Assembly: GCA_029786595.1 (NCBI GenBank)
Contig: JAFLXO010000010.1
Location: 1 to 34,218 of the forward strand
Source: Nitrososphaerota archaeon
Lineage (GTDB): Archaea > Thermoproteota > Nitrososphaeria > Conexivisphaerales > UBA164
Reading direction: 5' to 3'
Length of the DNA: 34,218 bases
Position numbers and translations under genes: made by a program. Positions 771-5,793 of this stretch are shown in pieces. The notes beneath the pieces were generated by a model, which saw only the letters and a list, made by a program, of their open reading frames with translations, was not told the origin of the DNA and searched no databases. The stretch's first letter is position 1, and every line of letters begins with the position of its first letter.

Positions 771-855
771 GCCGGGGGTGGGATTTGAACCCACGAGGCC
801 GAAAAGGGCCACAGGCTCTCCAGGCCTGCCCCCTACCAGGCTAGGGTACCCCGGC
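771..855 (-). tRNA. tRNA-Ser(GGA)
   Basis: Reverse complement GCCGGGGTACCCTAGCCTGGTAGGGGGCAGGCCTGGAGAGCCTGTGGCCCTTTTCGGCCTCGTGGGTTCAAATCCCACCCCCGGC: acceptor stem closes, GGTTCAAATCC T-loop, CAGGC-CTGGAGA-GCCTG anticodon arm, long variable arm typical of class II tRNA-Ser. Confidence 0.95.
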
Positions 856-2196
856 TTCGCTTTCTTGCAGTAATTCCCGCAACTTTTCGAGGAATGAGCT
901 TCCCTTGAATATGGGGATGGAGGCGGTCATATATCTCCCATCACCTTTAACTGATCCATGGAAGTCCTTGGCTAGCTTGCGTACATCTGAATACACATCT
1001 TTCTTGATATTATTGATACTGAATATAGAATTCGAATCAAGGCTGGTTTGGACGATTATCGTCTTTCCTTTGAAGTCCGGCAATAATGCCGCCCATCTAA
1101 GTATCAGGGGGGCCTCCATCGCAGTAAAAAGGTTATCACCGTAGATGTTTATAATTGAATGCGTTACTATCCGCCTTAATTGATCCGCAAGCATCCTGTT
1201 GAACCTGCTTATCAGGTTTTCCAACTCCTTTATTAGCAAATCTAGGGACGACGAAAAAAGGTCTCGATGCGCACCCAGCATCAGCATAAATGCCTCTTCA
1301 TACCTGCCCGACGCTATCAAAATTTGCGCCAGAAGCGAATGGTCCCTTAAGTTCCAGATTGGTGATATCCTATCTTCCGACATTGAGAAGAAGGACAATC
1401 TTTTAAGCGGCTCGGACTTGTCCTGTATTAGCTCCTGAAGAGATGATTCAATTTTTGCCAGTTCCTCGGGTGACAGATCATAAGCGGTCTTAAATCTATC
1501 CTCTTTTTTAAGTTCGACGCCAGCCTGACCAATATAAGATAGGGCAGCTCGTGGATTGCCCGTAAGCCCAGTAATATATGGATCTACGGATAACGTCAGA
1601 GATCTGTGCAATGGAAGAAGTTGACCCAGCGGAAATTCAAGCCTTTCTTCTATTCCTATGACCTCCTTTAAATTAGCTTCGTTTAGGGCAGCTTCATTTA
1701 ATGATATCAGATTTCTTTTATCCCCCACGTCTTGCCAGTCACCTAGCGATCCTATGACGGCAAGCGTAGCCAAACCAAATCCCTCCTCGAGAGCTATCTT
1801 AGCAAACATATATGATAGGGTAGCGCAGCTGACATCCGAACTTCCATCGAACCCAAAGGCTTCGCCGCTTATACCGCTACTTGGCTCCTTGTCTATCGAG
1901 ACCAATAAACCCTGGCTGCCAAGTTCGTTGACAGTATCGCCACCCATATCCAACGCTATGGTCGCATCGGCTGAATAAGCCTTTACAGATTGACTGACCG
2001 GAGCGTACGCTTCATGAAATTTTACGGCAACCCTTGCACCACGCCCGCTTATCACCCTGTACATTATGGCTGCAGAGGCTATACCATCAACGCTCTTGTC
2101 GGCCAGTATCAGAAAGTTTCCCCTTTCCTTTAATGGTTTCTTGACCCTATTATATGCCTTTTCCAGCTCATTCTGCAGTTCGTTAAACTTTGGCAT
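841..2196 (-). CDS. RecJ/GAN-like DHH-superfamily protein with degenerate catalytic motifs (possible Cdc45-like)
   Basis: 451 aa; DHH-family architecture (ADKSVDGIAS, ALDMGGD, SIDKEPSSG, IGSLGDWQD) directly downstream of rpsO, a linkage known in archaea. Confidence 0.85.
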   Translation of the reverse strand: MPKFNELQNELEKAYNRVKKPLKERGNFLILADKSVDGIASAAIMYRVISGRGARVAVKFHEAYAPVSQSVKAYSADATIALDMGGDTVNELGSQGLLVSIDKEPSSGISGEAFGFDGSSDVSCATLSYMFAKIALEEGFGLATLAVIGSLGDWQDVGDKRNLISLNEAALNEANLKEVIGIEERLEFPLGQLLPLHRSLTLSVDPYITGLTGNPRAALSYIGQAGVELKKEDRFKTAYDLSPEELAKIESSLQELIQDKSEPLKRLSFFSMSEDRISPIWNLRDHSLLAQILIASGRYEEAFMLMLGAHRDLFSSSLDLLIKELENLISRFNRMLADQLRRIVTHSIINIYGDNLFTAMEAPLILRWAALLPDFKGKTIIVQTSLDSNSIFSINNIKKDVYSDVRKLAKDFHGSVKGDGRYMTASIPIFKGSSFLEKLRELLQESEAGVP

Positions 2197-2861: not shown

Positions 2862-4118
2862 ATGTCATCCTTATATTTGGAAACAAAAGAAGGCTCTTCT
2901 GTCAATATAAAGGGATGGATACTAAGTATAAGAGAGCAGAAGACCATACTGTTTCTGATCGTAGTGAGGATGAGGGAACAGGTTCAGCTGGTCATCAAGG
3001 ATCCAAAGTTAATAGACAAGTGTAGCGGGCTCAATGTAAATACGGCGATCGAAGCCGTGGGTACGGTGAAGCGCACGGATAGGGTTCCCTCAGGATTTGA
3101 AATCGAGGTCAAAAGCATAAAAACAATTGTAACCCCTAAGAAAAGGTCACCTTTCGACCTTATTGGCAAGAACATGCCCGGTATAGAAACCAGGCTTGAT
3201 ATGAGGTCCCTGGATCTTAGACATCCTCTTAACCTTGCGCTTTTTAAGCTGCGGGCATATATGCTTTCCTCGATCAGGGAGCACCTTACCGCTAACGGAT
3301 TCCTGGAAGTGAACACGCCCAAGATAATAGCGACCGCCAGCGAGGGTGGTGCGGCCCTTTTTCCAATAATGTACTATGATAAGGAGGCATTCTTGGCACA
3401 AAGCCCACAGCTTTATAAGGAGGAACTGGTCATGTCGTTCGAAAGGGTATTCGAAATAGGGCCAATTTTCAGAGCTGAACCTTCACATACAGTTCGCCAC
3501 TTGAGCGAGGCCACCAGCCTTGATGCCGAAGCCGCATTCTTTAATAATGAAGAGATGATGGAGCTTTTGGAGCGAACCCTCGTCCATGTATTAGAGGACC
3601 TGGCGGGCAGATCTGAAATGGCTATCATCAAGGCGCCAAAGATCACCGCGATAACGCCATTTAGTAGATTTAAATATGGTGAAATTGTGGACAGGTTAGC
3701 TTCAACTGGTTTTCATATAGAATTCGGCGATGATTTGGATTCGGCAGCCCTTAAGGCATGGGGGGACAGGGTTGGCGGGTTTTATTTTATTACGGAGTGG
3801 CCAAATAAGCTCAAGCCATTCTATATCAAGCCAAAGGATGATAAGGTGTCTTTTTCATTTGATCTTATGTACAGAGAAATAGAGCTTAGCAGCGGCGGGG
3901 AAAGAATATACGACAGAAGGGTTCTAGAAAAAAGGATCAGGGAAGCAGGATTGCCAGTGCAGGCGTTCAAAAATCACCTTTCTGTGTATGATTACGGTAT
4001 GCCACCTCATGCTGGGTTCGGCGTAGGGATCGAGCGGTTACTGATGGTTATAGCAGGCCTTAAAAATATAAGGGATGCGGTACTTTACCCGAGAGATATA
4101 AGGAGGTTGACACCTTGA
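2862..4118 (+). CDS. aspS: Aspartyl-tRNA synthetase, archaeal type, probably non-discriminating Asp/Asn
   Basis: 418 aa; class II motifs (FLAQSPQLYKEELV, FRAEPSHTVRHLSEATSLDAE, GFGVGIERL); operon with gatCAB. Confidence 0.95.
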   Translation: MSSLYLETKEGSSVNIKGWILSIREQKTILFLIVVRMREQVQLVIKDPKLIDKCSGLNVNTAIEAVGTVKRTDRVPSGFEIEVKSIKTIVTPKKRSPFDLIGKNMPGIETRLDMRSLDLRHPLNLALFKLRAYMLSSIREHLTANGFLEVNTPKIIATASEGGAALFPIMYYDKEAFLAQSPQLYKEELVMSFERVFEIGPIFRAEPSHTVRHLSEATSLDAEAAFFNNEEMMELLERTLVHVLEDLAGRSEMAIIKAPKITAITPFSRFKYGEIVDRLASTGFHIEFGDDLDSAALKAWGDRVGGFYFITEWPNKLKPFYIKPKDDKVSFSFDLMYREIELSSGGERIYDRRVLEKRIREAGLPVQAFKNHLSVYDYGMPPHAGFGVGIERLLMVIAGLKNIRDAVLYPRDIRRLTP

Positions 4119-4381
4119 AATTCGATGTAGATGAGATATCCAATATGTCTCTTATAAAGCTCAATAGGTCCGAAAAGAAGGAAATAGTGAAGAGATTGAA
4201 TGCCTTGAAGTCATATCTAGATGCCATCAATTCAGTCAAGACGCCATCTTCTCCGATTATACTTGCACCAGAAGGTATCAATCAAAGGGCAGATGAGCCT
4301 ATTGTATTCGATAGCGATAAGGTATTGGCCTCCTTTCACACCATCAAGAATAGGTACATCAAGGCGCCGAGGACACTTTGA
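4115..4381 (+). CDS. gatC: Asp-tRNA(Asn)/Glu-tRNA(Gln) amidotransferase subunit C
   Basis: 88 aa, TTG start overlapping the aspS stop; position between aspS and gatA; GatC-like size and C-terminus. Confidence 0.75.
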   Translation: MKFDVDEISNMSLIKLNRSEKKEIVKRLNALKSYLDAINSVKTPSSPIILAPEGINQRADEPIVFDSDKVLASFHTIKNRYIKAPRTL

Positions 4382-5793
4382 GCTCTGGGATAATTTCAAA
4401 GGGAGCTCGCCAACTAGTGGATGAGCTGCAAAGGGGATCTCTTGAGGCGTCCGAGGTCTTTGAAACATATAGAAAAAGGATCAATGAATTCACTAAATTA
4501 AATGCCTTTATAACAAGCTTAGAATATAAGCCGAATGCCAGAAAGGAGGGGTCCATATATGGCTTGCCACTCGCAATCAAGGATAATATATCCACAGAGG
4601 GCATAAGGACTACTTGCGCTTCGCTAATGCTGAAGGACTATATGCCGCCGTACGATGCCACGGCCGTTGCCAAGCTCAAGGCCGCAGGGGTTTCAATCCT
4701 AGGGAAGACGAATATGGATGAATTCGGCATGGGGAGTTCAGGAGAGAACAGTGCATTTGGACCTACAAGAAATCCATGGGATATTGAAAGAGTGCCAGGA
4801 GGCTCGAGCAGTGGAAGCGCGGTGGCAGTCTCTGCTAGACTGAGCCCTGCTGCCCTTGGCACCGATACTGGAGGATCGATCAGGGCGCCAGCGAGTTTCA
4901 CTGGAACGGTTGGTTTCAAGCCTTCCTATGGGTACGTGAGCAGATACGGGCTAATTGCTTACGCTAACAGCCTTGAACAGATCGGAGTGATAGCAAGGAC
5001 CGTTGATGATGTAGCTTTAATATTTGGAGTTATACGAGGTAAAGATAGGTTTGATTCAACTTCAACGGATGCAAAACCGCTTAGCAATAATGAGAGCAAA
5101 CTGCCGAGTGGCGGCCATTTTAGGGGAGCGTTGTTACCGCAGCTCAGCGATCTAGTTTCGAAGGATGTTCGTGAAGCGTTTGATTCTTCCGTGGCAAAGC
5201 TAGACTCGCAAGGCATAGGATTCGCTGAAGAAAAAGTAGAAGAACTGGAACTTGCACTTAAATCGTATTACGTTGTAGCATGTTGTGAGGCAACTACTAA
5301 CCTGGCAAGATACGATGGCGTAAGATATGGGCCAGTTGCGGATCCTTCGAGGGATTGGAAATCGGCAATCAGCGAAAGCAGGACAATGTTTGGTAAGGAG
5401 GTTAAAGCGAGAATAATGTTAGGCTCGTATATGCTTTCCTCCGGCTATTATGAGGAGTACTATCTAAAGGCGCTTTATATAAGGAGGAACCTGAAACTTA
5501 GACTTTTAAAACTATCAGAGTCTTATGATTTTATCTACACGCCGACCATGCCGGTCCTGCCCTGGAAAATAGGTGAAATGATCGATGACCCGCTTCAGGT
5601 TTACCTATCTGATGCATTTACTGTCATCGCAAATTTAACCGGTGCGCCGGCCATATCCATTCCCATCGCGTTGAAGAAAGGATTGCCGGTGGGAGGCCAG
5701 CTTCAGGGCCGATATGGTGAGGATGATAGGTTGCTTGAAATGGCGGCAACGATATCTGGCCTGCTAAAATTTAGAGGTGAGCCCTCGATTTGA
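4378..5793 (+). CDS. gatA: Asp-tRNA(Asn)/Glu-tRNA(Gln) amidotransferase subunit A
   Basis: 471 aa; amidase signature GSSGENSAFGPTRNPWDIERVPGGSSSGSAVAVSA and GTDTGGSIRAPASFTGTVGFKPSYG. Confidence 0.97.
   Translation: MSSGIISKGARQLVDELQRGSLEASEVFETYRKRINEFTKLNAFITSLEYKPNARKEGSIYGLPLAIKDNISTEGIRTTCASLMLKDYMPPYDATAVAKLKAAGVSILGKTNMDEFGMGSSGENSAFGPTRNPWDIERVPGGSSSGSAVAVSARLSPAALGTDTGGSIRAPASFTGTVGFKPSYGYVSRYGLIAYANSLEQIGVIARTVDDVALIFGVIRGKDRFDSTSTDAKPLSNNESKLPSGGHFRGALLPQLSDLVSKDVREAFDSSVAKLDSQGIGFAEEKVEELELALKSYYVVACCEATTNLARYDGVRYGPVADPSRDWKSAISESRTMFGKEVKARIMLGSYMLSSGYYEEYYLKALYIRRNLKLRLLKLSESYDFIYTPTMPVLPWKIGEMIDDPLQVYLSDAFTVIANLTGAPAISIPIALKKGLPVGGQLQGRYGEDDRLLEMAATISGLLKFRGEPSI

Follow-up and report, generated by a model that had tools for sequence, protein, structure and literature searches.

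GAN, the archaeal RecJ of T. kodakarensis and P. furiosus (arCOG00427), is a full-length DHH-CID-DHHA1 protein encoded in an S15 neighbourhood (PMC3307487), and it is an active exonuclease. Independent inactivation of RecJ in Crenarchaeota and Halobacteria was described by Makarova et al. 2012 (PMC3307487): the S15-region orthologues of Desulfurococcales (arCOG00432), Halobacteria (arCOG00428) and Thermoproteales (arCOG05692) have a decayed DHH and were proposed to be structural CMG subunits. Eukaryotic Cdc45 likewise combines the same fold, including the CID, with a decayed active site, and in the human protein three of the four motifs carry inactivating changes (PMC4873980). The CID is the region through which both Cdc45 and GAN contact MCM, and it remains open whether a nuclease belonged to the ancestral archaeal replicative helicase and how many times it has been lost (PMC5484177).

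Here we analyse a stretch of 34,218 nucleotides from a Nitrososphaerota archaeon (hereafter the window), which carries a minus-strand gene at 841-2196 that shares its domain architecture and S15 neighbourhood with GAN; unlike in GAN, both the catalytic site and the GGGH motif are decayed. From sequence and predicted-fold comparisons we consider that its product is very probably a nuclease-dead, Cdc45-like non-catalytic subunit completing a CMG-type replicative helicase, this being the best-supported role. It resembles the inactivated orthologues listed above, which belong to lineages other than Nitrososphaeria. Compared with eukaryotic Cdc45 it is shorter (451 aa versus 530-570 aa in the matched chains), is only about 11-12% identical and retains the motif II and IV aspartates. 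Inactivated archaeal RecJ is already known as a kind, and the Nitrososphaeria lineage extends it; the literature searched, whose coverage excluded subscription journals, held no report of an inactive RecJ in Nitrososphaeria.

An S15-linked gene of the RecJ/Cdc45 family

The ORF has an ATG start one base past the rpsO stop codon, runs in the same direction as rpsO and is open throughout its 451 codons. The features of the locus, all on the minus strand, are:

770-855, minus: tRNA-Ser(GGA), from ARAGORN and sequence; its first 15 nt (841-855) encode the last four residues of the ORF, AGVP, and the stop
841-2196, minus: RecJ/GAN/Cdc45-like protein of 451 aa with a decayed nuclease site, from profiles, PDB matches and fold match
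919-954, minus: decayed DHHA1 GGGH motif, SVKGDGRYMTAS (residues 415-426), from alignment with intact homologues
1426-1617, minus: CID-type domain (residues 194-257), the MCM-contact region of Cdc45/GAN; Pfam PF21763, 38.5 bits, cut-off 27
1729-1755, minus: motif IV, IGSLGDWQD (residues 148-156), Asp153 kept, from the same alignment
1873-1899, minus: decayed motif III, SIDKEPSSG (residues 100-108; DHH expected), from the same alignment
1936-1956, minus: motif II, ALDMGGD (residues 81-87), Asp83 kept, from the same alignment
2074-2103, minus: decayed motif I, ADKSVDGIAS (residues 32-41; HxDxDG expected), from the same alignment
2198-2647, minus: rpsO, encoding ribosomal protein S15, immediately upstream and co-oriented; NCBIfam PRK08561.1, 172 bits, cut-off 154

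Profile searches recovered NCBIfam RecJ_archaeal with E=2e-36 and 126 bits, well short of its equivalog cut-off of 360, and Pfam DHH_CID above its cut-off; Pfam DHH reached 13.5 bits, under its cut-off of 28.1, DHHA1 was undetected in the Pfam search, and the GAN_nuclease profile scored 35 bits against a cut-off of 850. Relatives of known structure recovered by sequence (E=1e-10 to 7e-5) are Methanothermobacter RecJ-Cdc45, Pyrococcus RecJ and Thermococcus GAN. An AlphaFold (AF2) model built from a 48-sequence alignment (mean pLDDT 88, pTM 0.90) has the full-length RecJ/Cdc45 fold. In Foldseek comparisons this model matches 7bih (Methanothermobacter RecJ-Cdc45, in which, unlike here, the DHH motif is intact) with a TM of 0.86, ranked as the best fold match, and 5x4h (PfuRecJ) with a TM of 0.87, the fold match having E=7e-29; the TM to human and yeast Cdc45 is about 0.65. 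Given these full-length fold matches, the protein is, as modelled, a complete DHH-CID-DHHA1 protein.

The RecJ_archaeal E-value and the above-threshold DHH_CID match, along with the PDB and fold matches, establish that the homology to archaeal RecJ/GAN is not due to chance. The fold, the S15 neighbourhood and the profile match are all those of the archaeal RecJ/Cdc45 family (arCOG00427 and its inactive relatives), and the best explanation is that the ORF is the single archaeal RecJ/Cdc45 orthologue of its lineage. An earlier note on this DNA had taken it for an rpsO-linked, RecJ/GAN-like protein and had suggested a structure prediction as a check; both the linkage and the identity hold, and the model agrees with them. 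The note had also raised the possibility of a second, intact DHH paralogue. None of the RecJ/GAN type was found in the assembled genome, an incomplete MAG in which the ORF is the only such gene detected; across the family, exactly one RecJ match was found in each of ten of the 11 genomes. The one other DHH protein found in the genome (G000:C44, 319 aa) is an intact protein of the DHH-DHHA1 phosphoesterase type, and since it lacks the CID its domain composition indicates that it is not a second GAN.

Decay of the nuclease site under purifying selection

For the comparisons below the window's family is labelled f1, its genera g1 (that of the window) to g4, and two other families of the same order f2 and f3. 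Examination of the aligned motifs revealed that motif I reads DKSVDG, with the histidine replaced by D33, the first aspartate by S35 and the second, D37, retained, while DHH has become D102-K103-E104 (DKE) and GGGH has become KGD within the C-terminal segment. The site has thus lost the two histidines of DHH along with two ligands of motif I, and the intact series that marks GAN (HxDxDG, D, DHH, D, GGGH) is not present. Throughout g1 the acidic site residues D37, D83, D102 and D153 are retained, and new acids occupy three former ligand positions (D33, E104 and D419). The earlier note had called the DHH motifs erased: all the motifs that it quoted are present and the histidines are lost, but with four aspartates in place the site has decayed without being erased completely. 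Its observations that motifs II and IV remain and that the C-terminal DHHA1 motif is replaced are borne out by the alignment.

Two other g1 genomes (98% identity) carry identical residues at the DHH-domain sites, so sequencing error does not account for the decay. In the sister genera g2-g4 motifs II, III and IV are lost, and D37 is all that is left of the site. Mutation of DHH to AAA abolished the activity of the M. jannaschii RecJs (PMC5615345), which makes catalysis by a protein reading DKE at this position appear very unlikely.

Strong purifying selection acts on the gene: dN/dS, where measurable, is about 0.04-0.11 between g1 genomes and about 0.06-0.12 within g2 and g3, and the ten f1 loci are without frameshifts or stops. 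It lies directly after S15 in nine of these ten loci; in the g4 genome a different ORF is found upstream, and a search of that genome for the S15 gene did not find one. Between f1 genera the proteins are 26-31% identical, and the CID is the best-conserved domain (identity 0.45 versus 0.29-0.32 for the other domains); in g2-g4 no other Pfam domain of RecJ type can still be detected. Such a pattern would fit retention for MCM contact, not for catalysis.

Adjacency to S15 extends to f2 and f3. Within the class Nitrososphaeria, the metal-site motifs are kept in families f7, f9, f11, f12, f13, f16, f17 and f18, where motif II has either D or E. In f2 the motif-I histidine and the DHH aspartate have been lost, and erosion, partial or stronger, affects f14 and f22, four of the five f10 sequences and some of f19. 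The S15-adjacent gene of f3 was located by position and is eroded past profile recognition; at loci L063, L065, L066 and L067 it codes for a protein of 421-432 aa that is probably an even more decayed RecJ/Cdc45. Placing the label intact or not intact on a quick tree, which has long branches and an unsure deep branching order, requires at least four changes, and there would be more if loss were irreversible. As intact homologues exist within the class Nitrososphaeria, the site appears to have been lost in the window's lineage separately from the known inactivated archaeal groups, and other families of the class show erosion of their own. With intact, partly decayed and fully decayed S15-linked versions in one class, how a nuclease became a structural subunit can be traced and tested.

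A probable Cdc45-like role and its alternatives

We infer that the 451-aa protein is inactive as a nuclease and a member of a CMG-type complex. Having lost the DHH exonuclease site, it would work as Cdc45 does, non-catalytically, docking through the CID onto the N-terminal tier of MCM and through the DHH domain onto GINS, and this docking would complete the replicative helicase. Two features expected of a Cdc45-like protein, a DHH site decayed by sequence under purifying selection and a CID, are both found. The earlier reading of the gene as an inactive S15-linked RecJ/Cdc45 draws support from position, fold, histidine loss, the deeper loss in sister genera, purifying selection and CID conservation.

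The predicted partners are encoded by adjacent genes, MCM being found in eight and GINS in seven of the 11 f1 genomes; both are missing from the three g1 assemblies, G000, G006 and G007 (83, 73 and 74% complete). S10 is a universally needed gene. It lies near GINS-MCM in the sister genera g2 and g4, and these three assemblies lack it as well, in a search where the S10 query had no positive control. The simplest reading is that the absence of MCM, GINS and S10 in g1 is probably one shared assembly or binning gap, and real loss of MCM and GINS in g1 was rejected as the likely reading because S10 is missing alongside them. Weak MCM matches in the window's own genome were discarded as candidates: they correspond to winged-helix domains at the C-terminus of proteins that are at least partly mobile-element-like helicases, and not to MCM. 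An MCM-type winged-helix domain is found at the C-terminus of the proteins encoded at loci L077, L079 and L080 (G000:C15, G007:C68 and G000:C69), of which two or more are mobile-element-like helicases, in assemblies that lack MCM. At G009:C185:9276-11513 the MCM match falls in two pieces inside one 1206-aa open frame, which suggests an intein.

The acids retained in g1, together with the new ones, make an altered metal site conceivable, and a remodelled site formed by D33, D37, D83, D102, E104 and D153 might still support a weak or altered phosphodiesterase activity. The persistence of motifs II and IV and of two further aspartates, and the turning acidic of two lost histidine positions, would agree with this; we nonetheless hold it quite improbable, as both DHH histidines and the DHHA1 GGGH are gone, the AAA mutants of the M. 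jannaschii RecJs are inactive (PMC5615345), and g2-g4 keep the gene under selection without motifs II, III and IV. An inactive RecJ could instead act outside replication, for instance in RNA decay or ssDNA binding, in the manner of the Haloferax accessory RecJ proteins: Haloferax RecJ3/RecJ4 are reported to form a complex with aRNase J (PMC10470531), and having S15 and a tRNA as neighbours places the gene in a translation context. Against this, the protein is the only one of RecJ type found in its genome and it retains the CID, and we regard such a role as very improbable. That the gene is a degenerating, non-essential relic whose replication job is done by another protein is scarcely credible: the high divergence between genera would fit a relic, but uninterrupted frames at ten loci, low dN/dS, the near-constant place beside S15 and the preferential conservation of the CID all speak against it.

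Overlap with a tRNA-Ser(GGA) gene

At each of the ten f1 loci the ORF runs in frame into a tRNA-Ser(GGA) gene on the same strand and ends inside it, and the overlap persists despite the divergence of the proteins; the 20 non-f1 loci scanned have no tRNA at this place. The stop codon corresponds to tRNA nucleotides 13-15, and the residues AGVP at the C-terminus of the protein (AGVL at one f1 locus) are encoded by the 5' sequence of the tRNA. Related second tRNA-Ser copies in the f1 genomes examined have TGA or GCT anticodons, and so the overlapping gene appears to be their only GGA tRNA-Ser gene. Since the 15 nt are common to both genes on one strand, a single transcript cannot yield both products: were RNase P to cut at the 5' end of the tRNA, the cdc45 mRNA would be left without its stop codon and the four codons before it. 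This might couple the output of the cdc45-like gene to tRNA maturation, which we consider unlikely; alternatively, the overlap may be harmless and frozen, with an internal promoter for the tRNA. In g2-g4 synonymous codon conservation is raised (0.55-0.70 versus 0.42) in an interval some 35-65 nt before the tRNA, which may hint at such a promoter in these genera but is suggestive only, and the same interval holds no clear TATA-like box in g1. A functional overlap would tie a replication gene to a translation gene in an unusual way; the literature searched, subscription journals being outside its coverage, held nothing on point about tRNA/ORF overlaps.

Two further explanations of the overlap were rejected. 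There is no need to see AGVP as a C-terminal peptide selected for binding, since the tRNA sequence itself explains these residues, and the stop triplet is no adaptation to the overlap, because non-overlapping tRNA-Ser(TGA) genes have the same TAA/TAG at 13-15. In sister genera (L106, L121, L122, L124 and L125) tRNA-Ser(TGA) also follows an ORF tightly, starting no more than about three bases from the stop codon of an amidohydrolase-like gene upstream. Elsewhere in the window, at 2862-5793 on the plus strand, an aspartyl-tRNA synthetase gene is followed by amidotransferase-like ORFs (GatC/GatA type), as read from their sequence only.
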